Positions 1 to 62,173 of a stretch of 64,000 nucleotides of DNA are shown piece after piece. The stretch is from positions 14,811 to 78,810 of the forward strand of contig CAJTDQ010000006.1 of NCBI GenBank assembly GCA_910574895.1. The letters run 5' to 3'. The first letter of the stretch is position 1. Every line of letters starts with the position of its first letter. A program made the position numbers and the translations under genes. The DNA comes from Eubacteriaceae bacterium (GTDB lineage: Bacteria; Bacillota; Clostridia; Lachnospirales; Lachnospiraceae). The notes below the pieces were generated by a model that searched no databases, was not told the origin of the DNA, and saw only the letters and a list, made by a program, of their open reading frames with translations.

Positions 1-213
1 CAAAAAGATGACCATTCCCCTGTGACCGATAATTCTGTTATTGTCATAATATATATTCTTAATTGTATTCAAAATGATTCTCTTACATTTTCTATAGTCA
101 TTTTTTCGTTCTTTGAGATAGTTATAATAAGCATTTGTTGAAAGACTGAATTTTCTGCATAACCATCTGAGTCCATATTCATCTTTATTGTCATCAATGA
201 ACCGATATACCAC
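1..213 (-). CDS. IS3-family transposase OrfB, N-terminal part only
   Basis: This frame translates to an IS3 OrfB start (VVYRFIDDNKDEYGLRW, then LCRKFSLSTNAYYNYLKERK) and ends at the window edge near NNRIIGHRGMVIFL. OrfB is the integrase-like half with the DDE catalytic domain; that domain lies beyond the window, so the catalytic residues cannot be checked. The GTG at 213-211 is a possible independent start. The protein is more probably made as an OrfAB fusion by -1 frameshifting at 246-252, which leads into exactly this frame. Confidence 0.75.
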   Translation of the reverse strand, partial: MVYRFIDDNKDEYGLRWLCRKFSLSTNAYYNYLKERKNDYRKCKRIILNTIKNIYYDNNRIIGHRGMVIFL

Positions 214-491
214 CAATCGATTTCTTTTGCGAAGAATGCCGCGGCTTTTTTTAGGAAGGAATTTTCTTTTTCCAGCTCTTTTATTTTCAGATTCAGTTCC
301 CGTATTTCTTTTGATGCCGAACTCTCTGTGTTTCCTGTGGTATCGGGGCATTCTTCACCATATTTGCGTGACCACTCGTATATGGAGGATTTGGTTACTC
401 CATATTTTTCTACGATATCCATTGTTCTCTCTCCGCTGAGATATTTTTTGGCCACTTCTCTTTTAAAATGTTCATCATAGTATCTGCTCAT
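69..491 (-). CDS. IS3-family transposase OrfA
   Basis: OrfA is the DNA-binding half of the IS3 transposase. An N-terminal helix-turn-helix of the transposase_8 type is visible (DIVEKYGVTKSSIYEWSRKY, about residues 25-45), followed by a leucine-zipper-like coiled coil (about 62-85) ending in FLKKAAAFFAKEID, a sequence typical of these proteins. A good Shine-Dalgarno (AGGAGG, reverse strand near 500-505) fixes the start. Related OrfA proteins usually stop just after AKEID. Here the frame continues about 45 residues over orfB, possibly because a stop codon at that point was lost by one substitution (my inference from reading TGG where TAG would fit). Confidence 0.8.
   Translation of the reverse strand: MSRYYDEHFKREVAKKYLSGERTMDIVEKYGVTKSSIYEWSRKYGEECPDTTGNTESSASKEIRELNLKIKELEKENSFLKKAAAFFAKEIDWWYIGSLMTIKMNMDSDGYAENSVFQQMLIITISKNEKMTIENVRESF
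246..252 (-). other. Programmed -1 ribosomal frameshift site of the IS3 element
   Basis: On the reverse strand seven A residues followed by G (A-AAA-AAA-G) sit at the end of the OrfA coiled coil. Slipping back one base moves the ribosome from OrfA (LKKAAAFF) into the OrfB frame (SRGILRKRNR). A7G heptamers are the usual frameshift signal in IS3 elements. Confidence 0.7.
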
Positions 492-563
492 CTGCTTTTC
501 CTCCTGTTGGTTAATATTATATATTGCCGTCCCAGGTGTTGCAATTTTAATATACCACTACAA

Positions 564-929
564 CCGTACTGGAGCTGGTATGGATTTGGCAGTCGTGTGG
601 AATGGTGTGCCTGTTTCGTAAGCTGGTGCGCTAACGAGTGCGGCTATATTGATACTGGGGTTATCCCGAAATTTGCGGGCTGCGTCAACGGCGCACAATG
701 GTTTAAGGACAGAGGACAATGGCTTGACGGATCTGCCGAGCCTGTTCCCGGAATGATTATTTTCTTTGATTGGGAGAGCGATGGTGAAACCGATCATGTT
801 GGAATTGTGGAAAAAGTCGAAAACGGTATTGTTTACACCGTAGAAGGCAATTCCGGCGATAGCTGCCGAATCAATCAGTATTCAATAGGGAATTATCAGA
901 TTTACGGATACGGTGTGCCACAGTATTAG
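564..929 (+). pseudogene. CHAP-domain peptidoglycan hydrolase, N-terminus removed by IS insertion
   Basis: The surviving 121 codons encode a CHAP (cysteine, histidine-dependent amidohydrolase/peptidase) domain. The catalytic cysteine lies in VEWCACFVSW, the histidine in TDHVGIVEK, and the Asn/Glu region in YTVEGNSGD. Such proteins in Tn916-type ICEs (the orf14 role) carry an N-terminal membrane or lysozyme part and open the cell wall for conjugation. Here the reading begins abruptly at PYWSWYGF against the IS end at about 562, and the preceding in-frame codons belong to the IS. No start codon with a ribosome site is present, so this is a broken gene. Conjugation may be impaired as a result. 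Confidence 0.8.
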
Positions 930-934
930 AAAAC

Positions 935-962
935 AAGCCGTTTGCAGAAATGCAAGCGGCTT
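935..962 (+). terminator. Hairpin after the CHAP gene
   Basis: A 12-bp stem with one G-T pair (AAGCCGTTTGCA against TGCAAGCGGCTT) encloses a GAAA tetraloop six bases after the CHAP stop. A clear T-run is missing, so it may stall or protect transcripts rather than fully terminate. Confidence 0.5.
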
Positions 963-975
963 ACATAAAATCAAC

Positions 976-1030
976 TTTACAATGTTTTTACAATCGCAAG
1001 ATAACGAATTTGATGTTCGGTCGGTATAAT
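976..1030 (+). promoter_or_regulatory. PHO-box-like repeat and pstS promoter
   Basis: Two TTTACA hexamers start at 976 and 987, exactly 11 bp apart, which matches the TT(A/C/T)ACA-N5 direct repeats bound by PhoP in Bacillus. A perfect TATAAT lies at 1025-1030 with no good -35 box before it, as expected for an activator-dependent promoter. The nearby PhoP-type gene makes activation under phosphate starvation the likely mode. Confidence 0.6.
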
Positions 1031-1081
1031 AAAACCGTAATCGAAAAGATTATAGAGAAAAAACAAAAGGAGAATTTGATT

Positions 1082-1894
1082 ATGAAAACAAAGAAAATAC
1101 TTGCATTAGCACTTGGCGCAGTTTGTGTTTTCGGTATGCTTGCCGGATGTGGAAAACAGGAAACAGGTACAGTTTCAACAGATGGTTCTACCTCTATGGA
1201 AAAAGTAATCGGCTCGTTGAAAGAAACCTTTGAGGCAGAGAACGAAGGAATTACCGTTACATACAATCCCACTGGTTCTGGTACAGGCATTACAGCAGTA
1301 GCGGAAGGACGCTGTGACATCGGACTTTCCAGCCGTGATTTGAAGGATGAAGAAAAAGCAAAAGGACTTGAAGGAACAGTTATTGCTTATGATGGTATTG
1401 CAATCATTGTCAATCCCGAAAATACCGTAGATGATCTTACGATTGAGGATATTGCCAAAATCTATACTGGTGAGATTAAAAACTGGAAAGAAGTCGGCGG
1501 TAAGGACGCTGAGATTGTCTTAATTGGAAGAGAAGCAGGAAGCGGAACCCGTGACGGCTTTGAATCCATTACGGGAACAAAGGATCAATGCAAATTGAAG
1601 CAGGAACTTACCTCTACCGGAGATGTGATTACGACCGTTGCGGGGAATCCGGCAGCAATCGGATATGCGTCTCTTGCTTCCGTAAAGGACAGCGTAAAAG
1701 CATTGAAAGTCGGAGGCGTAACGCCCAGCGAAACAAAAATTAAGGACGGCAGTTATAAGGTGCAGCGTAATTTTGTGCTGGTTACGAAAACCGAGGGTAA
1801 ACTGTCTGATGCAGCACAGAAATTCTTTGACTACATTACTTCAAGCGACGCTTCGGAAGTAATCAGGAAAGCAGGAGCCGTACCGGTAAAATAA
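1082..1894 (+). CDS. pstS: Phosphate ABC transporter substrate-binding lipoprotein PstS
   Basis: PstS captures inorganic phosphate outside the membrane and hands it to PstCA. The chosen ATG gives a lipoprotein signal ending in GMLAGC and follows AAAGGAG by a normal distance; an upstream in-frame extension lacks a ribosome site. Phosphate-contact motifs typical of the family are visible: GSTSMEKVIGSL, CDIGLSSRDL and REAGSGTRDGF. Length (270 aa) is normal. It is the first gene of pstSCAB-phoU and follows a PHO-box-like repeat. A hairpin separates it from pstC, which in such operons lets pstS be made in excess. Its position in an ICE is unusual. Confidence 0.93.
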   Translation: MKTKKILALALGAVCVFGMLAGCGKQETGTVSTDGSTSMEKVIGSLKETFEAENEGITVTYNPTGSGTGITAVAEGRCDIGLSSRDLKDEEKAKGLEGTVIAYDGIAIIVNPENTVDDLTIEDIAKIYTGEIKNWKEVGGKDAEIVLIGREAGSGTRDGFESITGTKDQCKLKQELTSTGDVITTVAGNPAAIGYASLASVKDSVKALKVGGVTPSETKIKDGSYKVQRNFVLVTKTEGKLSDAAQKFFDYITSSDASEVIRKAGAVPVK

Positions 1895-1902
1895 AGGACT
1901 GT

Positions 1903-1934
1903 AAAAGCGACGGCGATAGGAAACCGCCGCTTTT
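1903..1934 (+). terminator. Intercistronic hairpin between pstS and pstC
   Basis: AAAAGCG pairs with CGCTTTT around a GC-rich apex. The hairpin sits eight bases after the pstS stop and before the pstC ribosome site. Its position suggests partial termination or protection of the pstS message rather than an operon end. Confidence 0.5.
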
Positions 1935-1957
1935 CACATTTTGAAAGGAATGTAGTG

Positions 1958-2830
1958 ATGAAGAAAAAGAGATTATTTGAAACCATCATACACGGCATAT
2001 TCCTGATATTGGGGCTTATTACAGTAGGATTTGTTTTGCTGATTACAGTGTATCTTATCATATCGGGTATTCCCGCTATTCGGGAAATTGGAGTTTTCAA
2101 ATTTCTGTTTGGGAAAGTTTGGGCTTCCACAGCAGCAAAAGCTTCCTATGGAATTCTGCCGTTTATTTTAACCAGCGTTTACGGTACAGCCGGAGCTATC
2201 GTAATCGGTGTACCGGTCGGCTTTATGACCGCTGTATATCTTGCAAAGCTTGCTCCGGAAAAAATAAAAACCATTATGGGATCGGCGGTCAGTCTGCTTG
2301 CGGGAATCCCGTCGGTGGTTTACGGTCTTGTGGGAATGCTTGTATTAGTGCCGGCAGTTCGGACGCTGTTTCATCTGCCGGACGGTGCAAGTCTGTTTGC
2401 GGCAATGATTGTTTTGGCGGTAATGATTCTCCCGTCAATTATCAAAGTTTCCATAACCGCATTGGAAGCTGTACCGAAGGAATATGAGGACGCATCTTTG
2501 GCACTTGGCGCTACTCCGGTGGAAACCTATTTCCGGGTGTCTGTTCCGGCGGCAAAAAGCGGAATTGCGGCGGCTGTTGTGTTGGGCGTAGGACGTGCCA
2601 TTGGCGAGGCGATGGCAGTAATGATGGTGGCAGGAAATGTAGCCAATATGCCATCCCTATTTGGGAGTGTGCGTTTTCTTACAACAGCAGTTGCTTCAGA
2701 AATGTCTTATTCAAGTGGGTTACAACAGCAGGCATTGTTCTCCATCGCCCTTGTACTGTTTCTCTTTATTATGCTGATAAACGCTGCACTTAATTTCTTT
2801 TTGAAGCGGGATAAGGAGGGTTCAAAGTGA
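1958..2830 (+). CDS. pstC: Phosphate ABC transporter permease PstC
   Basis: PstC is one of the two membrane subunits of the high-affinity phosphate importer. About six hydrophobic segments are visible. The permease EAA loop reads VPKEYEDASLALGATPVETYFRVSVP around residues 175-200, and GIPSVVYGLVGM is a family hallmark. ATG at 1958 is preferred over GTG at 1955 because the GAAAGGAA ribosome site then has seven bases of spacing. Its stop overlaps the pstA GTG start in GTGA, so the two are translationally coupled. Confidence 0.93.
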   Translation: MKKKRLFETIIHGIFLILGLITVGFVLLITVYLIISGIPAIREIGVFKFLFGKVWASTAAKASYGILPFILTSVYGTAGAIVIGVPVGFMTAVYLAKLAPEKIKTIMGSAVSLLAGIPSVVYGLVGMLVLVPAVRTLFHLPDGASLFAAMIVLAVMILPSIIKVSITALEAVPKEYEDASLALGATPVETYFRVSVPAAKSGIAAAVVLGVGRAIGEAMAVMMVAGNVANMPSLFGSVRFLTTAVASEMSYSSGLQQQALFSIALVLFLFIMLINAALNFFLKRDKEGSK

Positions 2831-3675
2831 ACAAAAGTCGAAAAGGATATATTTTTACTATGAAGCTGCTCATGTGGCTGTCAGTGGGAATTACGGCGGC
2901 ACTTGTATTGTTTTTGCTCGGATATATTCTTGTGAAAGGAATTCCCCATATCACTTGGGAACTGCTCTCTACAAAACCGAGCTATATTGAAGAACGCATT
3001 GGGATTCTGCCAAATATTCTGAACACCTTGTATATTATTCTTGCCACGCTTGTTTTTGTAATACCTCTTGGAGTGGGGGCGGCGATTTATTTAACGGAAT
3101 ATGCAAAGAATAAAAGAATTGTTACGGCGATTGAATATGCTGCGGAAACCCTGTCGGGAATCCCATCAATCATTTACGGGCTTGTTGGTATGTTGTTCTT
3201 CTGTCAGTTTTTAAATATGAAAACATCCCTTTTGGCTGGTGCGCTGACGCTTGTTATTATGAATCTGCCTACTGTTATGCGCACTACGCAGGAAAGCCTG
3301 AAAACCGTGCCACAGAACTACCGGGAAGGTGCGTTCGGACTTGGAGCCGGAAAATGGCGGGTAATTCGTACTGTGGTACTTCCCGGTTGTGTGGATGGGG
3401 TGGTCACAGGATGTATCCTGTCAGTCGGAAGAATTCTTGGCGAATCGGCGGCGCTTTTATTTACAGCTGGACTTGCCCACGAATTATATGGATTATTTGA
3501 GGGGCTGCAAAACTCCGGCAGTACGCTGACAGTAGCGTTATATGTTTATGCAAAGGAACAGGGTGAATTTGAAATAGCTTTTGCGATTGCCGCAATACTA
3601 ATGATTATGACGCTGCTTATCAACCTTGCCGCTGATATTGTCAGCCGTTATTTCAAGAAAAGGAGAAGCCTATGA
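2827..3675 (+). CDS. pstA: Phosphate ABC transporter permease PstA
   Basis: PstA is the second membrane subunit and pairs with PstC. It has about six membrane segments, the hallmark [12 protein letters not shown], and an EAA-like loop [26 protein letters not shown]. It starts with GTG inside the pstC stop region, behind AAGGAGGG, and its TGA overlaps the pstB ATG. These overlaps show a tight operon. Length of 282 aa is normal for the family. Confidence 0.93.
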
Positions 3676-4427
3676 GCAGTATAATGACAGTAAGAGATCT
3701 GTGCTTATGGTATGGAAAAGCACAGGCACTTAAACATATCAATATGGAAATCCCCGAAAAAAGCATAACGGCGCTTATCGGTCCGTCGGGTTGTGGAAAA
3801 TCCACATTTTTGAAAACACTTAACAGGATGAACGATTTGGTTTCCAGCGTTAAGATTACGGGCGAAGTTATGTATAACGGTGAGAATATTTATGACAATT
3901 CAGTTGATGTAAACGAACTTCGTAAAAATATCGGAATGGTGTTTCAAAAACCGAATCCATTTCCAATGAGCATTTATGACAATATTGCTTACGGACCTCG
4001 TACACACGGAATTAGAAGCAAAGCAAAACTCGATGATATTGTGGAACGCTCACTCCGGGATGCAGCTATTTGGGAGGAAGCAAAGGACAGGCTGAAAAGA
4101 AATGCTTTGGGACTATCCGGCGGTCAGCAGCAAAGGCTCTGTATTGCGAGAGCACTTGCAGTAGAGCCGCAGATTCTCCTGATGGATGAACCGACTTCGG
4201 CGCTTGATCCAATTTCCACTTCGCATATTGAGGAACTGGCAATGAAGCTGAAAGAAAAATATACGATTGTCATTGTTACACATAATATGCAGCAGGCTGT
4301 CCGTATCTCAGATCATACGGCATTCTTTCTGCTGGGGGATTTGGTTGAATTTTCAGAGACAGAAGCAATGTTTTCACAACCGGGGGATAAACGCACAGAG
4401 GATTATATTACAGGGAGGTTTGGTTAA
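3672..4427 (+). CDS. pstB: Phosphate ABC transporter ATP-binding protein PstB
   Basis: PstB is the ATPase that powers phosphate import on the cytoplasmic face. The Walker A motif is GPSGCGKST, the Q-loop lies in [16 protein letters not shown] (typical of PstB rather than other ABC ATPases), the signature is LSGGQQQR, and Walker B is [13 protein letters not shown]. The H-loop is VTHNM. The ATG overlaps the pstA stop and the TAA abuts the phoU ATG. Length of 251 aa is the family norm. Confidence 0.95.
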
Positions 4428-5069
4428 ATGCGGTCAAAATTTGATGAACAACTGGAACTGCTTCATAAAGAGCTTATTGAAATGGGCGCTCTTTGTGAAA
4501 ATGCCATAGCAATGGCGGCAAAAGCACTCTCAGAGGGCAACACGAAAATGGCGGCAAAAGTCCCCGAATTGTCAACTGAGATAGATAGAAAAGAGAGGGA
4601 TATTGAAACCATGTGTATGAAGCTGCTCCTTCAGCAGCAGCCGGTGGCAAAGGATTTGCGAACGATTTCCTCCGCACTGAAAATGGTGACGGATATGGAG
4701 CGCATTGGGGACAATTCCGGCGATATTGCAGAAATTGTGACTATGGCGAACATTTCACCCTCCGATAATACGGAGCATATTCAGGATATGGCAAGAGCGA
4801 CAATCAAAATGGTAACAGACAGTATTGACGCCTTTGTGAAGAAAGATATAGAGATTGCAAATGCAGTCATTACCTACGATGATGTGGTAGACGGTCTCTT
4901 TGACGAAGTAAAGACAGATTTGATAGAAAAGTTTGGTAATCCTGAATCAAACGGAGAAAAAGTTCTCGACCTTCTTATGATTGCAAAGTATTTTGAGCGT
5001 ATGGGTGATCATGCGGTGGAGATTGCAAAGTGGGTATTGTTTTCTATTACTGGAAGGAAAGAGAGATAA
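4428..5069 (+). CDS. phoU: Phosphate-specific transport regulator PhoU
   Basis: PhoU is a cytoplasmic helical protein that links Pst transport activity to the PhoR kinase and tunes phosphate uptake. Two PhoU repeats are visible, each built of three helices. The metal-binding E/D-x3-D-type clusters appear as MERIGDNSGDIAE (near residue 90) and FERMGDHAVEIAKW near the C-terminus. The gene begins directly after the pstB stop and ends the pst operon, the standard position. The next gene has its own promoter. Confidence 0.93.
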   Translation: MRSKFDEQLELLHKELIEMGALCENAIAMAAKALSEGNTKMAAKVPELSTEIDRKERDIETMCMKLLLQQQPVAKDLRTISSALKMVTDMERIGDNSGDIAEIVTMANISPSDNTEHIQDMARATIKMVTDSIDAFVKKDIEIANAVITYDDVVDGLFDEVKTDLIEKFGNPESNGEKVLDLLMIAKYFERMGDHAVEIAKWVLFSITGRKER

Positions 5070-5097
5070 ACGATAATTTCATTGCATATAAGCAAAG

Positions 5098-5126
5098 TTG
5101 AAAAAGAGGAGGGTTTATGCTATAAT
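5098..5126 (+). promoter_or_regulatory. Sigma-A promoter of the phoP-phoR pair
   Basis: TTGAAA at 5098-5103 and TATAAT at 5121-5126 are separated by 17 bp, with TG one base before the -10 box (extended -10). It lies between phoU and the regulator gene, so phoPR can be expressed independently of the pst operon. Confidence 0.75.
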
Positions 5127-5162
5127 ATAATATGGGTATTTTTATGCAGAAGGAGAATGACA

Positions 5163-5837
5163 ATGATTTATTGTGTAGAGGATGACAATGGAATTAGAGA
5201 TTTAATGATATATGCTTTAAATTCTGCTGGGTTTGAAGCAAAAGGCTTCACGGACGGTACAGAATTTTTTAGTGCGTTGCAAGCGGATCAGCCGAAACTT
5301 ATTATACTTGATATTATGCTGCCGGGTGATGACGGAATCACGATTCTAAAAAAGCTTCGTAACAATACTGTTACCGCAGATATTCCGGTTATTATGGCAA
5401 CAGCCAAAGGAACTGAATATGACAAGGTAATCGGTCTTGACGCAGGTGCAGACGATTATCTTGCAAAGCCATTCGGAATGATGGAAATGGTTTCCCGTGT
5501 GAAAGCTGTACTTAGGCGGACAGCTCCAAAAAACACCCCAAAAACTTTAAAGGTGGGAAATCTTGAAATAAAGGAATCTGAGCATACTGTTTATGCCTGC
5601 GGCGAGCGTATCACGCTTACATTAAAAGAATACGATCTTTTGTATTTGTTTATGGATAATCTTGGAAAAGTTTTCACCCGTGACAGATTATTACAATTAA
5701 TATGGAGTTCTGATTATATAGGCGAAACAAGAACAGTCGATGTTCATATTGGAACTCTCCGTACAAAACTCGGAGAATGTGGAAGTTATATAGAAACTGT
5801 CCGAGGCGTTGGGTATCGAATGGAGGCGAAGCTATGA
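5163..5837 (+). CDS. phoP: PhoP/PhoB-type OmpR-family response regulator
   Basis: The protein has an N-terminal receiver domain with acidic residues in CVEDDNG, the phospho-acceptor Asp in LIILDIMLPGDDG (about residue 50) and the Lys of LAKPFGM. The C-terminal winged helix is of OmpR type (LTLKEYDLLYLF, YIETVRGVGYRME). Start: ATG 5163 is chosen over ATG 5157 because AGGAG at 5151-5155 then lies seven bases upstream. It shares an ATGA overlap with the kinase gene. Assignment to phosphate control rests on its position after pstSCAB-phoU and the PHO-box-like repeat; sequence alone only gives the OmpR family. Confidence 0.8.
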   Translation: MIYCVEDDNGIRDLMIYALNSAGFEAKGFTDGTEFFSALQADQPKLIILDIMLPGDDGITILKKLRNNTVTADIPVIMATAKGTEYDKVIGLDAGADDYLAKPFGMMEMVSRVKAVLRRTAPKNTPKTLKVGNLEIKESEHTVYACGERITLTLKEYDLLYLFMDNLGKVFTRDRLLQLIWSSDYIGETRTVDVHIGTLRTKLGECGSYIETVRGVGYRMEAKL

Positions 5838-7492
5838 CAAAAAGAATTTTTCGTACTGTATTCGTTGTTGCCATCAGCATATTTATTGCTTCAGCCGTAC
5901 TTTTTATGACTGTACTGTATGACTATTTTTCTGGAATCCAACAAAATCAACTGCGTATGCAAATAGATCTTGCTTCACAGGGCGTTGAAGATGAAGGACT
6001 TGATTACCTGAAAAACCTAAATATAAAAGATTACCGTGTTACTTGGATAGGAACAGATGGTAAAGTTCTTTATGACAGCATATCAGAGGCTGATGAAATG
6101 GAAAATCATTTTGAACGGGAAGAAGTAAAAGAAGCACTTTCAGAGGGATATGGTGCAAGTTCCCGTTATTCCTCCACATTAACGCAGCGTTATCTCTATG
6201 GCGCAAAGCGACTGCCAGATGGAACTGTTATCAGGCTTTCAGTAACACAGAATTCTCTGCTCATACTTACACTCGGTATGTTGCAGCCAATTATGATTAT
6301 ATTTGTGATTGCTATTATTTTATCAGCTTTTTTAGCTTCGAGACTGTCAAAGAAAATTGTTAAGCCGTTGAATGAATTAAATTTGGATAAACCTTTAGAT
6401 AATAATGGATACGATGAACTTTCTCCTCTGTTTCGGCGTATTGATACACAGCAAAAAGAGATTAGTCGGCAAAGTGAGGAATTAAAACAAAGGCAGAATG
6501 AGCTTGAAGTGATGACCTCCGCTATGTCTGAGGGAATTATTTTGCTGAATAATAGAGGAACTGTTTTGAGTATCAACAAGGCGGCTGCGAAACTATTTGG
6601 GACAGATTGTTTTTGCATAGGTGAGGATATCGTGTCAATAAACCGCAGCTTGGAATTAGCCCAATTGCTTAATAAGGCGAAGAACGGGGAACATTCAGAA
6701 AGAGTTGTGGAACTTGGATGTGGTCAGTATCAAATGATGGCAAGTCCTGTTATTTCAAACAATATAGTATCCGGGATTGTGCTTTTAATACTTGATGTAA
6801 CGGAGAAAGAAAAGGCGGAACAATTACGTCGTGAATTCACAGCCAATGTTTCACATGAGTTAAAGACGCCATTGCATACCATATCGGGAAGCGCTGAGCT
6901 TTTGGCGAACGGTATGGTAAAGCCGGAGGACATTCCCATCTTTTTAAAGCGTATTTACTCTGAAGCACAACGCATGATTCAATTAGTGGAAGATATTATA
7001 CGGCTTTCACATTTGGACGAAGGCGCTGAAGATATGAAATGGGATATGGTGGATTTATATGCGGTAGCAGAGGAAACGATAAATTCTCTTGCCGACGAAG
7101 CAGAAAGCAATGGGATAAAATTTGAACTGTATGGAGAAACTGTTTTGATCAACGGCATCAGGCAGCTGCTTCAGGAGATTATATACAATCTCTGTGACAA
7201 TGCGATCAAATATAACTGTAGGGGCGGTTCGGTATCTGTAGGGGTAAAGAATGAAAATGAATTTGCTGTTCTGACCATCACCGACACGGGTATTGGCATT
7301 CCGGCAGAACATCAAGAGCGCATTTTTGAACGATTTTATCGAGTAGATAAAAGTCATTCAAAAGAAATAGGTGGTACAGGACTTGGACTGTCTATTGTAA
7401 AACACGCTGCAAAACTGCATAATGCGGAAATTGAGTTGCACAGCATTGTAAATAAAGGTACTGAAATTACAATCAAATTTCCTAAAAACTAA
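5834..7492 (+). CDS. phoR: PhoR-type sensor histidine kinase
   Basis: The likely partner kinase of the preceding regulator. Two membrane segments (about residues 8-30 and 152-175) flank an extracytoplasmic domain. Then come a HAMP-like linker, a PAS domain (about 225-325), the HisKA domain with the phospho-accepting His in VSHELKTPLH (about residue 340), and the ATPase domain with the N-box NLCDNAIKYN, DTGIGIP and GGTGLGLSIVK. ATG 5834 overlaps the regulator stop. The architecture and 552-residue length fit PhoR of Gram-positive bacteria. Pst and PhoU probably feed phosphate status to it. Confidence 0.8.
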   Translation: MTKRIFRTVFVVAISIFIASAVLFMTVLYDYFSGIQQNQLRMQIDLASQGVEDEGLDYLKNLNIKDYRVTWIGTDGKVLYDSISEADEMENHFEREEVKEALSEGYGASSRYSSTLTQRYLYGAKRLPDGTVIRLSVTQNSLLILTLGMLQPIMIIFVIAIILSAFLASRLSKKIVKPLNELNLDKPLDNNGYDELSPLFRRIDTQQKEISRQSEELKQRQNELEVMTSAMSEGIILLNNRGTVLSINKAAAKLFGTDCFCIGEDIVSINRSLELAQLLNKAKNGEHSERVVELGCGQYQMMASPVISNNIVSGIVLLILDVTEKEKAEQLRREFTANVSHELKTPLHTISGSAELLANGMVKPEDIPIFLKRIYSEAQRMIQLVEDIIRLSHLDEGAEDMKWDMVDLYAVAEETINSLADEAESNGIKFELYGETVLINGIRQLLQEIIYNLCDNAIKYNCRGGSVSVGVKNENEFAVLTITDTGIGIPAEHQERIFERFYRVDKSHSKEIGGTGLGLSIVKHAAKLHNAEIELHSIVNKGTEITIKFPKN

Positions 7493-7502
7493 ACATAATG
7501 AG

Positions 7503-7539
7503 AAACAGAGTCGTAGTAAAAACTGCGGCTCTGTTTTTG
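7503..7539 (+). terminator. Terminator after phoR
   Basis: AAACAGAG pairs with CTCTGTTT (with further pairing inside) and is followed by a T-run. It closes the phosphate block ten bases after the phoR stop. Confidence 0.75.
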
Positions 7540-7605
7540 CTTTACAAGGATTTTATCAGAGTGCGATAACAGATTTGATGTTATTTTGATAAACTTAATC
7601 TGATA

Positions 7606-7631
7606 GAAAAAGCAGCCTTGCGGCTACTTTT
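7606..7631 (-). terminator. Terminator of the reverse-strand repressor gene
   Basis: On the reverse strand AAAAGTAGCC and GGCTGCTTTTT form a stem with a GCAA loop, overlapping the repressor stop codon and ending in a T-run. Confidence 0.65.
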
Positions 7632-7956
7632 CGGGTGCAGTATCAATTAAGGCTTTCGCAGTTGCTTTAACGACTTCTAACGACCGTTCATCGCAAGCTG
7701 AAAGCATACGGAGGAGATTTTCTACCTCGGAATCTTTGGACGGCTTCTCAGGGTAGAAAATCGAATCCGCAGAAATGTTCAATTCCCGGACGAGCTTATG
7801 TAGGACATCGAAGCTCGGCTTCTTGCCCTCGTTCTCGATCCGATATAGGTATCGCTCGGTAATATTCGCTTTTTCAGCCAACGCTTCTATGGTGATCCAG
7901 GCGTGTTCACGAGCTGCCTTAATGATACAACCAAGCGTTTCAGGTTTATTATGCAC
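7624..7956 (-). CDS. Cro/CI-type (XRE) transcriptional repressor, Tn916 orf9 position
   Basis: The 110-residue protein has an N-terminal helix-turn-helix of the HTH_3 class (LGCIIKAAREHAWITIEALAEKANITERYLYRIENEGKKPS split over about residues 8-50), followed by a short helical tail. It starts with GTG behind GGAGGTGG on the reverse strand. In Tn916 the protein at this place (Orf9) is thought to repress transcription toward orf7, xis and int, and an inverted repeat in the divergent region fits that role. Direct control of this ICE's excision is inferred from position. Confidence 0.8.
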   Translation of the reverse strand: MHNKPETLGCIIKAAREHAWITIEALAEKANITERYLYRIENEGKKPSFDVLHKLVRELNISADSIFYPEKPSKDSEVENLLRMLSACDERSLEVVKATAKALIDTAPEK

Positions 7957-7959
7957 TTA

Positions 7960-8036
7960 CAGTCCACCTCCATATATAATTATACTGATTTATGCCATCT
8001 TTATAATGGCACAGCAATTCAATTATAAGTGGACTG
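7960..8036. promoter_or_regulatory. Possible paired operator for the XRE repressor
   Basis: CAGTCCAC at 7960-7967 is repeated inverted as GTGGACTG at 8029-8036. One arm overlaps the repressor's own leader, the other faces the rightward genes. Two inverted half-sites in a divergent region suit a repressor of this class, but binding is only inferred. Confidence 0.35.
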
Positions 8037-8126
8037 ACAGTTCGCATATAACTGAACTATAAAGAAATATGAACCCTGCCAAATAAAAAAACGAGGTTTT
8101 GACAGGGCGATTTAATATGCCTACAC

Positions 8127-8163
8127 CCTCCGATTCTGAGTTTTTTTGGATCGGAGGTTTTTT
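8127..8163 (+). promoter_or_regulatory. Hairpin that is terminator-like and hides a ribosome site
   Basis: CCTCCGAT (8127-8134) pairs with ATCGGAGG (8150-8157), followed by six T residues. The 3' arm contains GGAGG placed seven bases before the ATG at 8165. The structure could terminate transcription and also block translation of that small ORF. Confidence 0.55.
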
Positions 8164-8164
8164 A

Positions 8165-8218
8165 ATGCGCTGGATTATTCTCGGCGTTCCGCTGCTTGTG
8201 ATGAGCAGCGAATATTAA
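8165..8218 (+). CDS. Possible 17-residue leader peptide
   Basis: ATG to TAA encodes MRWIILGVPLLVMSSEY. GGAGG lies seven bases upstream within a hairpin arm. A short hydrophobic ORF before a second terminator-like hairpin (8330-8375) resembles a translational attenuator. There is no homology evidence, and the ORF may be fortuitous. Confidence 0.3.
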   Translation: MRWIILGVPLLVMSSEY

Positions 8219-8329
8219 ACTGTTACAAAGGTATTATCAGAAAGTATTTCATTGAAAAAAGCATTTACCCCACAAAAGGACAATGCGGCTCACATACTGA
8301 ACTGATATGCCATAAATACAATGAAACAA

Positions 8330-8375
8330 ACGCACTTGCACGGCGAAATTTGTCGCTATGCAGGTGCGTTTTTAT
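8330..8375 (+). terminator. Terminator-like hairpin upstream of the sigma-like gene
   Basis: ACGCACTTGCA pairs with TGCAGGTGCGT, an inner CG stem extends it, and five T residues follow. It lies 100 bases upstream of the sigma-like gene in the same direction, so it could act as an attenuator. Confidence 0.6.
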
Positions 8376-8428
8376 ATTTTGCGATATTTTGAGCTTTTAT
8401 AGCGTTGGTTGCCGTTCACCGCCTTTCG

Positions 8429-8460
8429 GTCTGAATTTTTACATTTTTGAAAATTCAGAC
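8429..8460 (+). promoter_or_regulatory. Stem adjacent to the sigma-like gene's ribosome site
   Basis: GTCTGAATTTT pairs with AAAATTCAGAC, ending directly before TGGAGGT and the ATG at 8475. It may influence translation start or stability. Confidence 0.4.
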
Positions 8461-8474
8461 TGGAGGTAAAGAAA

Positions 8475-9053
8475 ATGGCAAAAAGCCAATTAGATGTTCT
8501 GAAAGAAGAATTTCAGAACGAATGTAAGGTTATCAATTTGAAGTACGAGTATGAGGGATACATAGGCGTGGAGCAATGGGCGATCATTTCTGCGCTGACC
8601 GAAAAAGAGCTGTTTGAAAAATATCCTGAAATTGTCAAACAATATATGCCTTTCGTGCTGCTGTCTAATGAGCAGGGACAGGCTATATATGAGTTCAGAA
8701 GAAATGAAAGCAAGTTTTATAAGCGCAGCTTAAACAACGAGGACGCATTTGGATATGACGATGAGCTTATAGGCATATTCCATTCTGAGGTCGTTGTTCC
8801 CAGCTTTGTTGAGCAGAAGATAACAGAGGAATACGAAGAAAATCGTTATCAGTTGAAGATGAAGCTGTTGGACAAGGCTCTTTCAAGCCTTACCGAGAAG
8901 CAATACAAATACCTCATAGCCCGCTATGTTGCAAATAAAAGCGCAAGGGAAATTGCTGGAGCGGAGGGGGTATCTCATCAGGCAATTGAAAAGCATTTGA
9001 ACGCAGCGGTCAAGAAAGTGAAAAAAATATTTAAGGGATTTTTCCGAAAATAG
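8475..9053 (+). CDS. Sigma-70-like factor, Tn916 orf7 position
   Basis: The 192-residue protein carries a C-terminal sigma region 4-type helix-turn-helix (LTEKQYKYLIARYVANKSAR, then EIAGAEGVSHQAIEKHLNAA). The N-terminal part is acidic and not recognised. Tn916 Orf7 is a sigma-like protein that promotes its own transcription and that of downstream xis and int, and the position here is the same. A strong TGGAGG site precedes the ATG. It could alternatively be a phage-type RNA polymerase accessory factor; the region 4 call is firm, the partner promoters are unknown. Confidence 0.75.
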   Translation: MAKSQLDVLKEEFQNECKVINLKYEYEGYIGVEQWAIISALTEKELFEKYPEIVKQYMPFVLLSNEQGQAIYEFRRNESKFYKRSLNNEDAFGYDDELIGIFHSEVVVPSFVEQKITEEYEENRYQLKMKLLDKALSSLTEKQYKYLIARYVANKSAREIAGAEGVSHQAIEKHLNAAVKKVKKIFKGFFRK

Positions 9054-9154
9054 GTTGTCATTTGGCTGACTGATTCCAAATTAGTGAAGGGGTTGTTTTG
9101 AATCCGGATAAAGATTTCCCCTTCACTTAATCTTGGAAATGCGAGGTCAATGCT

Positions 9155-9724
9155 ATGCAAACAGAGAATAAAGAAAAGGTGAAGCGTGGAGAAATTTATC
9201 TGCACGATTTTGGAAACAATGCAGGCTCAATTCAGAATGGGGTAAGACCTGTTCTTGTAGTTCAATGCGATGAAGGCAATCAGGCAAGCACGACAACGGT
9301 TGTTGCAGCTCTTACATCAGTTATAAAGAAGCGTTATTTGCCGTCCCATATTATCTTGGGCGATAAATTTGGACTCAAAGAGCCTTCAATGGTTATGCTG
9401 GAACAACTGAAAACAGTCAATCAGTCCGAACTTGTGGAATATATCGGATTTGTTGACAGCGAATATCTGCTCCGTAAGGTGAATCACGGCTTAAAGAAAG
9501 CGCTTGGTTTGTGGGTGGATAAGCCGCAAAAGCACAAGGGGGATATTCGCTGCCTTTGTCCCGCCTGCTTACAGGCGTATAAGAAAACACAGAATTATAT
9601 TGTCAGGCGGCTTGATCCGCTGGCTTCCAAAAGGGAGAAATGCGATAAGTGCGACAATATGGGTTGGGATTATATCATTTATGAAAGGCGTACTTCCTCA
9701 GAGGATAAGGGGGTACAGGAATGA
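9155..9724 (+). CDS. MazF/PemK-like protein with C-terminal zinc-ribbon-like extension
   Basis: Residues about 8-115 match the PemK/MazF fold: VKRGEIYLHDFG, GVRPVLVVQCD and TTVVAALTS. Members of this family are mRNA-cleaving toxins. Residues 125-180 add a second module with CLCPACL and CDKCDNMGWDY, two cysteine pairs that look like a zinc ribbon. No antitoxin-like gene is adjacent: the upstream gene is sigma-like and the downstream gene excisionase-like. Activity as a toxin is therefore open; the protein could instead regulate ICE transcripts. GAGGT lies seven bases before the ATG, and the stop overlaps the next start. Confidence 0.65.
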   Translation: MQTENKEKVKRGEIYLHDFGNNAGSIQNGVRPVLVVQCDEGNQASTTTVVAALTSVIKKRYLPSHIILGDKFGLKEPSMVMLEQLKTVNQSELVEYIGFVDSEYLLRKVNHGLKKALGLWVDKPQKHKGDIRCLCPACLQAYKKTQNYIVRRLDPLASKREKCDKCDNMGWDYIIYERRTSSEDKGVQE

Positions 9725-9948
9725 TGAGTGATGATAAGAAGGTAAAGCAGCCTAAATATGAAGTCCCATTGTGGCATAAAACAAATCTTTCTATTGATGA
9801 AGCGGTCGCTTATACCGGGATTGGCAGAGCAAAATTATATGAGATGACAAATAGAGAAGATTGCCCATTTGTATTATGGATTGGAAATCGGAGGGTAATA
9901 AAGCGGCAGGTTTTTGATGAGTACATTGCAAATATGTATTCGATATAA
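9721..9948 (+). CDS. Excisionase-family small DNA-binding protein, copy 1
   Basis: The 75-residue protein is a MerR/HTH_17-type winged helix (NLSIDEAVAYTGIGRAKLYE, then CPFVLWIGNRRVIKR), the fold of Tn916 Xis. It overlaps the MazF-like stop (ATGATGA), so it may be coupled to it. It is nearly the same as copy 2 and more distant from copy 3. Such proteins bend DNA at att sites or serve as regulators; which copy is the true excisionase is not known. Confidence 0.7.
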   Translation: MMSDDKKVKQPKYEVPLWHKTNLSIDEAVAYTGIGRAKLYEMTNREDCPFVLWIGNRRVIKRQVFDEYIANMYSI

Positions 9949-9964
9949 CAGAGTTGTCAAGTCT

Positions 9965-10004
9965 GCGATAAGCCAGTTCGCATAATTGGCTTATCGCTTC
10001 TTTT
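9965..10004 (+). terminator. Terminator between excisionase-type copies 1 and 2
   Basis: A perfect 11-bp stem (GCGATAAGCCA with TGGCTTATCGC) is followed by TTCTTTT. It splits the small-gene cluster into two transcription segments. Confidence 0.75.
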
Positions 10005-10044
10005 CTACTATGATGTACTCACCAAAGGCGAGGAGGTACAGCAA

Positions 10045-10287
10045 ATGGAAAGAAAACGAAATCAGGCGGAAAAAATCCAAGTTCCTGTATGGTATAAAAC
10101 AAATTTATCAATCGAAGAAGCAGCAGCTTATTCAGGGATAAGTCGGGATAAGCTCTACGAGATGACAAACAAAGAGGATTGCCCATTTGTATTGTGGATT
10201 GGAAACCGCAGGCTGATAAAAAGAGAAGTTTTTGATGAGTACATAAAAAAAGGCATATTCGATTTAAGGAGGAACTACTATGGATGA
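10045..10287 (+). CDS. Excisionase-family small DNA-binding protein, copy 2
   Basis: The 80-residue protein carries the same winged-helix core as copy 1 (NLSIEEAAAYSGISRDKLYE and CPFVLWIGNRRLIKRE) with a different C-terminal tail. GAGGAGG precedes the ATG. It lies after a terminator, and its last codons overlap the start of copy 3. The close similarity to copy 1 indicates a recent duplication. Confidence 0.7.
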   Translation: MERKRNQAEKIQVPVWYKTNLSIEEAAAYSGISRDKLYEMTNKEDCPFVLWIGNRRLIKREVFDEYIKKGIFDLRRNYYG

Positions 10288-10519
10288 TGAAGTTATGACT
10301 TATAAGGCAAAGCTTGAAGCAAGGAATGCTGACAAGCCAATATGGGAGAAAAAATGTCTTTCTATTGAAGAAGCGGCGGCATATTCCGGTATCGGGATAA
10401 CGAAGCTCAGACAATTATCACGGCAAAAGAAATGCCCGTTTGTAGTGCCGCTTGGGAATCAGGTTTTTATTGTCCGGGAGAAATTAGATACCTATATCAA
10501 GGGTAAAAAGCATATTTAG
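10280..10519 (+). CDS. xis: Probable excisionase Xis, copy 3
   Basis: This 79-residue protein directly precedes the integrase gene (12 bases apart), the position of xis in Tn916. It opens its domain with KPIWEKKCLSIEEAAAYSGI, resembling Tn916 Xis (IPIWERYTLTIEEA), and continues KLRQLSRQKKCPFVVPLGNQ. Xis bends the element ends and drives Int toward excision. It overlaps copy 2 by eight bases. The position and the IPIWE-like start make it the best candidate for the real excisionase among the three. Confidence 0.75.
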   Translation: MDDEVMTYKAKLEARNADKPIWEKKCLSIEEAAAYSGIGITKLRQLSRQKKCPFVVPLGNQVFIVREKLDTYIKGKKHI

Positions 10520-10531
10520 GAGGGGTGACTT

Positions 10532-11767
10532 ATGGCTAAGGAAAAGAGAAAGGATAAATCAAGAGTAGTTCTTCGTACCGGGGAATTACAAAGAAGCAAC
10601 GGTACTTACCAATACTCGTGGATGGACGCAAACAAAAAGAGGCGTTATGTCTATGCGAGGAACTTAGATGATCTTCGTGCAAAGGAAGAACAGATTGCAA
10701 AAGATAAAAGCGATGGCATTAAGACCGAAGCCCGCTATACGACAGTAAATGAACTTTTTGATTTATGGAAAGTTCTGAAACGGGGATTGAAAAACAACAC
10801 CTTTGAAAATTATAAATATATGTATGAGACTTTCGTCCGTCCAAATATCGGAAAACAGCGTATTTCAACTCTGAAAAAATCTGATGTTAAGCGGTACTAT
10901 AATTATCTTGTCGACGAAAGAGGATTAAAGGCTTCTACGATTGACAGTATCCATACCGTGCTTCATCAGATTTTGGATATGGCGGTTGATGATGATTACA
11001 TTCGTAACAATCCGTCTGACAATGTGTTGAGAGAGCTGAAAAAATCCCATGTTTTTAAGACGGAAAAACGCAGGGCATTAACACGACCTGAGCAGGATTT
11101 GTTTCTTGACTATCTGAAGAACACGCCGAAAGCACAAAACTGGTATCCGATATTTGCGGTAATGGTCGGTACGGGATTACGAGTTGGTGAAGTGACCGGG
11201 CTGAGATGGTGCGATATTGATATGGAAGAAGGCATTATTGATGTTAATCACACTTTGGTTTACTACGATCACCGAACCGATGACAGCAAGAAAGGCTGCT
11301 ACTTCAATGTGAATACAACAAAAACCCCAGCGGGCAACAGACAAGTACCAATGCTTGATTTTGTAAAAGAAGCCTTCCTTATGGAAAAGGAAAGGCAGGA
11401 AATGTTTGATTTACATTGCGAGGTTATCATTGACGGGTACAGCGATTTCATATTTATTAACCGCTTCGGGCAGGCTCAACATCAATCAACGCTGAACAAG
11501 GCAATCCGCCGGATTATCCGGGACTGTAATGATGAGCAGTTATTGAAAGATGAAAATGCGGAGGTATTGCTGCCACACTTTAGCTGTCACTCTCTCAGAC
11601 ATACATTCACGACAAGAATGTGTGAAGCAGGAGTAAATGTGAAGGTAATTCAGGACGCGCTCGGTCACAAGGATATTTCCACCACGCTTAATATCTACAC
11701 CGATGTGACAAAGGAACTCAAGCGCTCCGAATTTGAGGGACTTGACTTATACTTCAAAAATGAGTAA
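10532..11767 (+). CDS. int: Tn916-family tyrosine integrase
   Basis: The integrase cuts and rejoins the ICE ends and target DNA. It has an N-terminal AP2-like arm-binding domain (GTYQYSWMDANKKRRYVYARNL region), a SAM-like core-binding domain (about 70-165), and a catalytic domain. The catalytic residues are visible: Arg in GTGLRVGEVTGLRW (about 216), His and Arg in HSLRHTFTTRM, His in LGHKDISTTLNIY and the nucleophilic Tyr in NIYTDV (about 388). Length of 411 aa is close to Tn916 Int (405). AGGAGGG precedes the ATG. It is intact, so mobility remains possible. Confidence 0.92.
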   Translation: MAKEKRKDKSRVVLRTGELQRSNGTYQYSWMDANKKRRYVYARNLDDLRAKEEQIAKDKSDGIKTEARYTTVNELFDLWKVLKRGLKNNTFENYKYMYETFVRPNIGKQRISTLKKSDVKRYYNYLVDERGLKASTIDSIHTVLHQILDMAVDDDYIRNNPSDNVLRELKKSHVFKTEKRRALTRPEQDLFLDYLKNTPKAQNWYPIFAVMVGTGLRVGEVTGLRWCDIDMEEGIIDVNHTLVYYDHRTDDSKKGCYFNVNTTKTPAGNRQVPMLDFVKEAFLMEKERQEMFDLHCEVIIDGYSDFIFINRFGQAQHQSTLNKAIRRIIRDCNDEQLLKDENAEVLLPHFSCHSLRHTFTTRMCEAGVNVKVIQDALGHKDISTTLNIYTDVTKELKRSEFEGLDLYFKNE

Positions 11768-11906: not shown

Positions 11907-12017
11907 TTACAGATTGACAATCTGGAGAATCGAGAAAATAGGACAGTAAAACAGATTATGGAGGAACTTATCAATATGACCGATTTCGTCCCGACAATGA
12001 AACAGTTAGATAAATAA
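11907..12017 (+). pseudogene. Possible remnant of a chromosomal gene at the insertion site
   Basis: An open stretch of 36 codons without a start (LQIDNLENRENRTVKQIMEE, ending FVPTMKQLDK) runs from an in-frame TGA to a TAA and is followed by a good terminator at 12031. That pattern suggests the 3' end of a gene cut by the ICE. The family was not recognised. It could also be chance. Confidence 0.35.
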
Positions 12018-12030
12018 AAATGTATATATA

Positions 12031-12066
12031 AAGGCATTTCCAAGAGTTTTGGAAGTGTCTTTTTGT
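12031..12066 (+). terminator. Terminator after the gene remnant
   Basis: GGCATTTCCAA pairs with TTGGAAGTGTC (G-T pair included), followed by TTTTTG. The rest of the gap to 12204 is AT-rich with TATAAT-like boxes and no gene. Confidence 0.75.
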
Positions 12067-12204
12067 TTGAAAGTTTTATATTGTCGCAAATCAAAAAAGA
12101 ATACTTAATATTGCGCATAACTAAAAAGGAGATTACAATATATGTATAATTATAAACTTAAATGTTCGTATAATCGTGTATAAATGAAAAAGGGGCGAGA
12201 TATT

Positions 12205-59959: not shown

Positions 59960-60013
59960 ACTATACTATACTTATATAAGACATATAGAAAGTGGTAAGG
60001 AGGATGAAACAAA

Positions 60014-60451
60014 ATGGATGTTAAAGTATTACAAAAGGATATGATTGCTGCTATGAAAGCGAGAGATAAGGCGAGAAAGGAATCTATTTCAGCACTGATA
60101 CAGGCAGTAAAAAAAGCGGGAATTGATGCAGGATGCAGAGAAGATATTCCTGAAGAAATGGTAAATAAAGTTATCTTAAAAGAATTAAAGACAGTAAAAG
60201 AACAGATTGACAGCTGTCCGGCAGATAGAACAGATTTGAGGGAAGAATATCAGGCAAGATATGATGTGTTCAATGAATATGCACCAAAACTCATGAGTGC
60301 AGATGAGGTAGAGGCTGAGTTGAAAGAGAAGTTTGCAGATGTGCTTGCAACAGGAAATAAAGGGCAGATTATGAAAACAGTTATGCCGGCTTTTAAAGGA
60401 CGTGCAGATGGAAAGATTATTAATCAGCTTGTAGCAAAATTATGTCAGTAA
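60014..60451 (+). CDS. GatB/YqeY domain protein
   Basis: The 145-residue protein matches YqeY: DVKVLQKDMIAAMKARDK at the start, then a helical body and GQIMKTVMPAFKGRADGKII at the end, resembling the tRNA-binding tail of GatB. The biochemical role is not settled, though a tRNA link is likely. AGGAGG lies upstream of the ATG with about ten bases of spacing. Confidence 0.85.
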   Translation: MDVKVLQKDMIAAMKARDKARKESISALIQAVKKAGIDAGCREDIPEEMVNKVILKELKTVKEQIDSCPADRTDLREEYQARYDVFNEYAPKLMSADEVEAELKEKFADVLATGNKGQIMKTVMPAFKGRADGKIINQLVAKLCQ

Positions 60452-60477
60452 GCGGCATAGAAAGGTTAGTGAAAAAC

Positions 60478-62169
60478 ATGAAAAGCAGATTTGTAAAAAA
60501 TATTATTTCAGGCATATGTGCATTGACATTGGCGGTTAGCATACTGCCCGGCTGCAATAAGGTAACAGCAGGTGTGGTGGAAAATAAGATTGAATATCAT
60601 TTTGCCAGTCAGAATCCGGGACTTGCATATGGGGAGATAACAGTCAGCACAGAAAAGCCGGGAGATTATCAGTTGTATTGGGGAGATGAAAGTGGTAATA
60701 AGTTAAAATATAATGGAGTTTCTTTTACGGAATTAGCAGATGTAGAAACAACAGAAAGTAAACTTACCACAACTTATAAAATTCCGTCTGAATATACGGT
60801 GATACCACAGGGTGCAGAGAAGTTAATGTTAGTTGACAGCAAATCAACCACCGTTTATACATATGATATTCCAAAAGAAAAACAGTTGAATGAAGGAAAC
60901 GTTATATATCAGTTCGGGCTTATGAGTGATGTACATTATAATAGATATCATGACTTTTCAGAGGATGATTCTGTAGTTGCATTTAATAATGCATTAAAGT
61001 TCGTAAATGCCCAGGGTATTGATTTTTTAGGAATGACGGGAGATTTAAGCAGCCACGGTGAAAAAGAAGCCTTTACAAAATTTAAAACTGCAATTGATAA
61101 ATATCCTAAAATGACGGTGTATACATGTATGGGAAATCATGATGTAGGTGGAATTAAGGATTTTAATAAATATGTAAATACAAAGAAAACAACAGACAAA
61201 AATATTAAAAACATTAACAGTAATGGTGTCGATTTTGTATATGAAAAGCAGGGAGATATTTTTATTTTCTTTAGTCAGACAAAATGGTCTTATAATGGCA
61301 AATTCAGCCGATTGCTGGAAGACCAGCAGTTGAACTGGCTGGAAAAAAATCTAAATACCTTTGCGAATAAACATGTGTATTTGTTCTTTCACTCATATTT
61401 TGCGTTGGAAAATGGTGATGTTACAAATGCCGTAGGAAATTTGAAAAATCCGGGTGGGTATACTTATGATTTAACATATACATTTGGAAATGATGATGAA
61501 AAAAGATTTCGAAAATTGTTAAATAAATATGCAAATGTGACTATGTTTAATGGGCATTCGCATTGGGCATATGATCAGCAGAAGTATAATTCCGATTTGA
61601 ATATAGGGAATATTAACTCTAAAAAAACAGGAGCTTCTATTGTACATCTGGCTAGTGTCAGTGCACCACGAACAATTGAAACAAATTCGACAGAGAGAGA
61701 TGAGAATAACGGTAAACTTTCCCAAGGAACAGTAGCATTAAGATACAAAAACAGTACAGTGTATCTTTCTACAGATTTTATAGAGGGAAAATATATGGCA
61801 GATGCATCTTATATCTGCTATGATGGCAAGAAGGGAACACCGATTCCGGAGGTAAAGACAGGTGGTTCAAAGATTAAATCTGTTGGAAAGATTAAGAAGG
61901 TTTCAAGAAAGTCAAACAAATACAAAGTTTTAGTAAAATACAAAAAAGTCAAAAATGCCTTTAAGTATGAGATTCAATATGCAACTCATAAAAAGTTTAA
62001 GGCAGGAAAGACAAAAACAAAACGTACAAATAAAACGAAGTATACAATTACAAAGTTAAAAAACAGAACAACTTATTATATCAGAGTTAGAGCATATAGA
62101 TATCAATTTGGTGAGAGAGTTTATGGAAAATGGTCTAAAGTAAAAAGACTTAAGATAAAGAAGAAGTAG
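60478..62169 (+). CDS. Metallophosphatase-family lipoprotein with Lys-rich C-terminal module
   Basis: The ATG at 60478 gives a lipoprotein-type signal ending SILPGCN; a longer frame begins at 60442 inside yqeY without a ribosome site. The calcineurin-like phosphoesterase motifs are MSDVHYNRYHD, MTGDLSSHGE, MGNHDVGG, LFFHSYF and FNGHSHWAYD, giving the two-metal site. The substrate may be a nucleotide or surface phosphodiester. The last 100 residues form the Lys-rich fibronectin-III-like module shared with the GH18 and GH16 enzymes (TYYIRVRAYRY, WSKVKRLKIKKK), probably a surface attachment part. Confidence 0.8.
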   Translation: MKSRFVKNIISGICALTLAVSILPGCNKVTAGVVENKIEYHFASQNPGLAYGEITVSTEKPGDYQLYWGDESGNKLKYNGVSFTELADVETTESKLTTTYKIPSEYTVIPQGAEKLMLVDSKSTTVYTYDIPKEKQLNEGNVIYQFGLMSDVHYNRYHDFSEDDSVVAFNNALKFVNAQGIDFLGMTGDLSSHGEKEAFTKFKTAIDKYPKMTVYTCMGNHDVGGIKDFNKYVNTKKTTDKNIKNINSNGVDFVYEKQGDIFIFFSQTKWSYNGKFSRLLEDQQLNWLEKNLNTFANKHVYLFFHSYFALENGDVTNAVGNLKNPGGYTYDLTYTFGNDDEKRFRKLLNKYANVTMFNGHSHWAYDQQKYNSDLNIGNINSKKTGASIVHLASVSAPRTIETNSTERDENNGKLSQGTVALRYKNSTVYLSTDFIEGKYMADASYICYDGKKGTPIPEVKTGGSKIKSVGKIKKVSRKSNKYKVLVKYKKVKNAFKYEIQYATHKKFKAGKTKTKRTNKTKYTITKLKNRTTYYIRVRAYRYQFGERVYGKWSKVKRLKIKKK

Positions 62170-62173
62170 TGAT

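Follow-up and report, generated by a model that had tools for sequence, protein, structure and literature searches.

A putative phosphate uptake operon with its regulators as cargo of a reduced, lysS-specific mobile element in a Eubacteriaceae bacterium

The cargo of elements derived from integrative and conjugative elements (ICEs) is mostly discussed as drug resistance, and in Tn916 the accessory gene lies between the lysin gene and the regulatory genes. Streptococcal ICEs integrating at lysS are described, in the excerpt of PMC4701971 consulted, as targeting the 3' end of this gene, with a 13-bp repeat within the gene in some of them, and as carrying ConjICESt3 modules. Cis-mobilisable elements (CIMEs), decayed ICE derivatives devoid of transfer and integration genes, can be moved by a tandem partner (accretion), according to the portion of PMC5704250 available. 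The present analysis concerns a 64,000-nucleotide stretch of the draft genome (2.48 Mb, 27 contigs, 98.87% complete) of a Eubacteriaceae bacterium, referred to below as the window (G000:C6:14811-78810; contig CAJTDQ010000006.1, assembly GCA_910574895.1), in which an ICE-derived element carries a phosphate transport operon, pstSCAB-phoU, together with the regulatory genes phoP and phoR. Coordinates are window positions unless stated otherwise. An ICE-derived element with exchanged cargo is of a known kind; what sets this one apart is its cargo, its reduced form and the state of the operon as the only copy found.

It is likely that the native Pst system of this bacterium has been lost and that a mobile ICE-derived copy, now stranded by an insertion sequence (IS), has taken over. 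The block would constitute the cargo-plus-recombination half of an element whose Tn916-type integrase inserts at the lysS 3' end, and the slot between its lysin and XRE genes appears to be filled by an entire Pho operon of Clostridia type, which brings a sensor pair and probably also a promoter under PhoP control. All genes named by the original prediction, which had described positions 564 to 11767 as a Tn916-family ICE, are present as judged by open reading frames (ORFs) and protein families, the full order being CHAP fragment, pstS, pstC, pstA, pstB, phoU, phoP, phoR, reverse XRE, sigma-like, PemK/MazF-like, three xis and integrase. Its extent needed amendment, as the right end lies at 12001 and the PemK/MazF-like gene had been omitted; the xis named there is a set of three tandem paralogues. 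The features of the block and its borders are as follows.

1..559, minus strand: right part of an IS, forming the left border; transposase ORF 69-491 (PF01527/PF13518)
560..929, plus strand: 3' fragment of a conjugation-module lysin (CHAP, PF05257)
976..992, plus strand: candidate PhoP box TTTACA-N5-TTTACA, 109 nt upstream of pstS
1085..1894, plus strand: pstS (TIGR02136, above cut-off)
1955..2830, plus strand: pstC (TIGR02138, above cut-off)
2827..3675, plus strand: pstA (TIGR00974, above cut-off)
3672..4427, plus strand: pstB (TIGR00972, above cut-off)
4428..5069, plus strand: phoU (TIGR02135, above cut-off)
5160..5837, plus strand: phoP/phoB-type response regulator (TIGR02154, 1.5e-69, below cut-off)
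5834..7492, plus strand: phoR/pnpS-type sensor kinase (NF046044, 4.5e-93, below cut-off)
7624..7956, minus strand: XRE repressor (PF01381)
8475..9053, plus strand: sigma-70 region 4 type regulator (PF08281)
9155..9724, plus strand: PemK/MazF-like gene, also within many related integrase modules (PF02452)
9721..9948, plus strand: xis paralogue 1 (PF09035)
10045..10287, plus strand: xis paralogue 2 (PF09035)
10280..10519, plus strand: xis paralogue 3 (PF09035)
10532..11767, plus strand: tyrosine integrase (PF00589, PF02920)
11989..12001, plus strand: lysS-type 13-bp core, the right end of the element (attR); sole copy in the window
12002..12080, plus strand: lysS 3'-tail codons (PTMKQLDK-stop) and a hairpin past the core; the same tail ends lysS in G022

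All five PstSCAB-PhoU proteins pass the curated NCBIfam cut-offs, and phosphate transport is predicted from the sequence, as had been proposed for this cargo. The names PhoP and PhoR lean on the operon context as well, since their strong matches stay under the curated cut-offs. The gene order is identical to that of chromosomal pstSCAB-phoU-phoPR operons of Clostridia such as that of G359, whose PstC, PstA, PstB and PhoU are jointly 75.6% identical to those of the window; in the stretches read, however, the chromosomal operons have no int or xis nearby, whereas the window operon sits with both. The G+C content is 42.0% in the operon and 35.8% in the right flank. The cargo is complete and foreign to the host genus. 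The repeat upstream of pstS is a candidate PhoP box by analogy with Bacillus, and a literature search on this motif gave no paper; G421, G424 and G359 have similar TTTACA-type repeats 100-110 nt upstream of pstS, and G344 has one in the vicinity of the gene.

The element's operon is the only pst operon found in the host assembly and in that of Emergencia sp. 1XD21-10, which carries the same block. PstS and PstB each occur once at high identity in the host, the next PstB-like protein being 37% identical, and a second pst operon, which had been proposed as a point to check, was not found in the 27-contig draft; Emergencia has one strong PstS (99%) with a weak 29% match, and one strong PstB. Among 22 other genomes of the host genus, several of them incomplete, a PstS match is present in five, with segments only 36-43% identical. 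In G022 and G020 a divergent native pst-phoU-phoP operon is flanked by a radical-SAM gene on one side and a Na/Pi cotransporter gene on the other; G012 shows the Na/Pi flank, and the operon of G018 was seen without either neighbour, G014 not being among the genomes read. In the host, the corresponding place lies within the window and is occupied as follows.

59960..63267, plus strand: native-pst slot, by synteny with G022 and G020; radical-SAM and Na/Pi neighbours present, pst absent
60442-62169: calcineurin-like phosphoesterase gene in the slot (Pfam)
62174-63109: BspA-type leucine-rich-repeat protein gene in the slot (Pfam)

As the native operon is missing from its usual place, the element's operon is now the only Pst system of the host in this assembly. 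A tree of lysS makes G019 the closest partner of the host (90/84), inside a group containing the bearers of the native operon G012 and G022, and no PstS match was found in G019 at 99% completeness. The Pst tree groups the window and Emergencia with G421, a member of the Emergencia genus (100/99); four native operons stand apart. The second outcome named by the original prediction as refuting, this pst block at the same place in relatives that lack int and xis, was not seen; theirs is a different operon elsewhere. Na/Pi cotransporter domains are present in 22 of the 23 genomes. In both G022 and G012 (L196, L197), phoP is part of the native pho operon, and no phoR match at E 1e-10 was found before the Na/Pi gene.

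A scan of the genome contigs with the window integrase gave 78 integrase loci, and in 40 of them the sequence to the left of int extends for 7.5 kb or more. The whole block recurs at one of the 78, in Emergencia sp. 1XD21-10 (locus L032, contig C17), with DNA identities of 98.6% (window 564-9905) and 98.9% (10025-11740), a recurrence that marks the arrangement as more than chance. G425 (of the Emergencia genus) and G125 (assigned to the 'same class', not the 'same order') show one and the same match at an identical position, and Emergencia therefore seems to be a member of a different order within the class. Judged by the identity, the block has moved recently between the orders, in one direction or the other. 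At its left end the Emergencia copy has the lysS core (C17:52170); a 149-residue ORF that no Pfam family matches comes next, then part of the lysin gene, containing an in-frame stop, and then the pst block. The contig stops within int, 11,977 bases past the lysS core, giving an element of about 12 kb. The lysin-pstS-pstC stretch is matched by 38 of 391 genomes sampled from the class; the host aside, their pst parts are at most 71% identical and their lysin parts up to 78%. Relative to the window, Emergencia is without 125 bases between xis paralogues 1 and 2, as if two xis copies had recombined. A patch (8311-9060) centred on the sigma-like gene is only 84-94% identical within the match of about 99%, and 39 of the 192 codons of this gene differ; its far higher divergence is a sign of mosaic exchange.

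The cargo slot is also seen in related elements. In the ICE of Pseudoflavonifractor sp. Marseille-P3106 (G026, L038), used here as the reference, the gene after the lysin is on the reverse strand and has elongation-factor-G-like domains; we take it to be of the tet-type ribosomal protection kind. Beyond it come a related sigma gene, PemK, xis and int. The element of G025 (L030), 13.7 kb long and beside lysS, has a shortened lysin, radical-SAM, nitroreductase, macro-domain, Sir2-like and DUF5131 genes, followed by the genes from XRE to int; near this element the transfer-gene queries matched, besides the lysin, a 42-residue PrgI fragment on its right. Within this sibling cargo (L030 155-6821) the macro-domain gene adjoins the Sir2-like gene, and the DUF5131 gene is included too. 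The tet-type gene of G026 and the cargo of G025 in one slot indicate that the slot accepts different cargo, and the placement of the phosphate genes at a tet position holds, since the related ICE (integrase 83% identical) has its tet-type gene there.

The integrase carries PF02920, the DNA-binding domain of the Tn916 integrase, and the three tandem small genes match the Tn916 Xis family PF09035. Residues 85-404 of the integrase match solved chains named 'Int protein' (6emy, E 1.5e-34), presumably the integrase of Tn1549. The part of PMC5871717 available accords with that identification. On the right side, the element of the window and those of L029, L030 and L031 stay alike through a lysS-like stretch and diverge directly after its core. 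A single copy of the core, TCCCGACAATGAA, is present in the window, 100 shuffles contained none, and the host's own lysS holds the same 13 bases. As read from these junctions, the insertion target is the 3' end of lysS. The lysS 3' ends differ among the species of the genus (loci L121-L142: PTMKSLPNDK, PTMKQLDK, PTMKKLD), as an insertion hot spot would predict. The PemK/MazF-like gene (9155-9724) is a member of the recombination module at many related loci, and an adjoining antitoxin is not obvious.

The left border is of a different nature. The lysin of the original prediction is present as a CHAP domain, though it corresponds only to residues 444-569 of the lysin that the G026 ICE encodes, which is 569 residues long (76-78% identity; 76% over 126 residues), and it adjoins an IS of about 1.3 kb (~1319 bases), with terminal inverted repeats TAGTGGT... 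at both ends, which we assume to be IS3-type. Comparison of the IS flanks gave no matching short repeat, and a left attachment site (att) of the element is absent in the window. Leftward, beyond the IS, lie a transketolase fragment and then biosynthetic-type genes up to the contig start, 14.8 kb away.

Transfer genes were sought with tblastn using six proteins of the G026 ICE (relaxase, VirD4, PrgI, VirB4, sortase, lysin) as queries rather than the proteins of Tn916 itself. Lysin fragments, and none of the other five proteins, were found in the three regions searched, namely the left flank as far as the contig start, the whole window, and Emergencia C17:14001-64147; as a positive control, the same search matched all six in the host's own contig C12. 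The left-flank ORFs, all of which were read as listed, with Pfam run on 10 of them and on the transketolase fragment, include no transfer genes. An integrative mobilisable element has its own integrase together with a relaxase, an oriT or both; of these, a search confined to the ORFs of 560-12001 found an integrase and no relaxase. Contig C12 (L176 7418-20000, L177 1-14783) holds a second ICE of the host, with MobA/VirD2 relaxase, VirD4, PrgI, VirB4, lysozyme-CHAP lysin, serine recombinase and ParA; nothing indicates that it moved the pst element.

With the ICE of G026 the element has in common the layout of lysin, cargo slot, regulators, xis and int, an integrase 83% identical and a CHAP part 76-78% identical. 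That ICE carries genes for MobA/VirD2 relaxase, VirD4, PrgI, VirB4 and sortase, a module we take to be of the Tn1549 kind rather than that of Tn916 orf13-orf24; the CHAP lysin gene beside the cargo, a trait of Tn1549-type ICEs, persists as a fragment, whereas the relaxase-VirD4-PrgI-VirB4 module is missing from the window element and the Emergencia copy alike. The integrase arm-binding domain and the Xis families are common to the element and Tn916. It differs from Tn916 in that no orf13-orf24-type module was seen, in its lysS-specific end, its three xis genes and its pst-phoPR cargo, and the low-specificity integration of the Tn916 family is contradicted by the right end stopping at the lysS core and by the Emergencia copy located at lysS. 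Hence assignment to the Tn916-family ICEs does not stand: the int and xis domains are of that type, but transfer genes are absent, insertion is lysS-specific and the relative's module is non-Tn916. In contrast to the streptococcal lysS ICEs (PMC4701971, in the excerpt consulted) the element is without a ConjICESt3 module and resides in Clostridia, and in contrast to a CIME, which keeps attL and attR and has lost its integration genes (PMC5704250, in the portion available), its int and xis are intact and its left att is missing.

For the likely course of events, namely loss of the native Pst system and its takeover by the stranded element, the following steps may be proposed. The native operon would have been lost, perhaps already in an ancestor common with G019; a lysS-specific element with the Pho operon would then have arrived, and its left end would later have been replaced by the IS. 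With the IS in place of the left end, excision through the element's own att sites would no longer be possible, leaving the cargo stranded. Low phosphate would free PhoR from the control of PstSCAB-PhoU, PhoP would bind the repeat upstream of pstS, and high-affinity uptake would be restored in a bacterium otherwise relying on Na/Pi cotransporters. The element could have travelled as a full ICE that decayed after arrival in each host, by accretion with a partner that uses the lysS site as well, or in some other way, for instance through free DNA taken up by the cell. Here the slot is filled by a core physiological system that is complete and includes its regulators, in a recipient without any other copy found. 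The locus would provide a concrete case of a mobile element taking over a regulon natively encoded in sister species, and the gain and loss of phosphate scavenging by element traffic in gut Clostridia becomes testable.

Several observations weigh against this course of events. At 98.9% completeness in 27 contigs, a further pst operon in the host retains a small probability. Assembly errors are common at IS elements, one of which forms the left border. The element lies about 136 kb from the host lysS (C6:162494-164047) on the same contig, a position that the proposed course of events does not account for. A single inversion does not explain it either: lysS still precedes agr-like genes, as in G022, and in neither G012 nor G022 is lysS the neighbour of the gene that stands to the right of the element here (12184). 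The PhoP-box pattern has one match in the window against 0.5 expected by chance, and is by itself not rarer than chance; a repeat of this type was not found upstream of pstS in G302, G423, G012 and G022. Finally, 25 of the 2083 codons of the seven cargo genes differ between the window and Emergencia, and as 14 of the 25 changes are non-synonymous, this pair shows no purifying selection.

Other explanations differ widely in their probability. An intact Tn916-family ICE with its transfer genes farther left would fit the Int and Xis domains and the gene order, but is extremely improbable: the contig start is reached in 14.8 kb without transfer genes, an outcome named beforehand as refuting, and in Emergencia lysS stands directly at the left end. 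This candidate was rejected on the ORF reading, Pfam and tblastn with its positive control. There is scarcely any likelihood either that the pst operon is native and the integrase module merely landed alongside; the order pstSCAB-phoU-phoPR is that of an ordinary chromosomal operon, as in G359, but operon and module travel together into another order at 98.6-98.9%, this operon is in no other of the 23 genomes of the genus, and the sister species keep a different operon at a different place, on which grounds a native locus was rejected. An assembly artefact or contamination placing an Emergencia-like piece in the contig, suggested by the repeat element at the left junction and the draft state of the assembly, is very unlikely, if a little less so than the two preceding alternatives, since the right junction contains no N and leads into genes that have counterparts elsewhere in the genus (74% G012, 56% G022), the contig also holds the genus lysS and the radical-SAM/Na-Pi neighbourhood, and the copy differs from that of Emergencia by the 125-base stretch and the 84-94% patch.

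The route of transport is more evenly contested. That a complete pst-bearing ICE moved and each known copy shed its transfer genes after arrival has a chance somewhat below even. The lysin, a transfer-module gene, survives as fragments with differing cuts (residue 444 in the window, where the cut is the IS; 405 in Emergencia; 70 with 234 in G025), and the first ~35 bases of the lysin part shared by the window and Emergencia differ, as if their left neighbours had differed. No complete pst-bearing ICE was seen, however: among the 40 integrase loci with at least 7.5 kb to the left, pst is present in one, which is the reduced Emergencia copy, and both elements traced back to lysS (Emergencia and G025) are reduced, with left ends shared at 84-91%. 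A more speculative and rather doubtful proposal is that of a lysS-specific lineage of about 12-14 kb that has permanently shed a Tn1549-like conjugation module, kept both ends, Int/Xis and the slot, spreads via partner ICEs sharing lysS, and trades core operons (Pho here; radical-SAM/nitroreductase/macro-sirtuin in G025). If true, a satellite would resupply a nutrient system to lineages lacking their own, and high-affinity phosphate uptake would be a portable trait, lost and regained.

No pst-carrying relative was found in the literature searched, where most subscription journals lay outside the coverage, in agreement with the original prediction, which knew of none. The main text of PMC6907783, in the part available, contains neither 'phosphate' nor 'pst', and PMC12904643, likewise in part, describes a family of integrative and mobilisable elements with tet genes in which 'pst', 'lysS' and 'phosphate' are absent. 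Viral contigs with PstS encoded no relative, in a search that left out phage and metagenome collections. A plasmid search and an Rfam scan gave no match, and a tRNA search found none. The biosynthetic-type genes of the left flank form a cluster (L009 238-13500) with AMP-ligase, ketoreductase, BtrH-N, two radical SAM, ATP-grasp-like, aminotransferase and kinase genes, and a second AMP-ligase/ABC-exporter cluster is present at L120 2346-9225.

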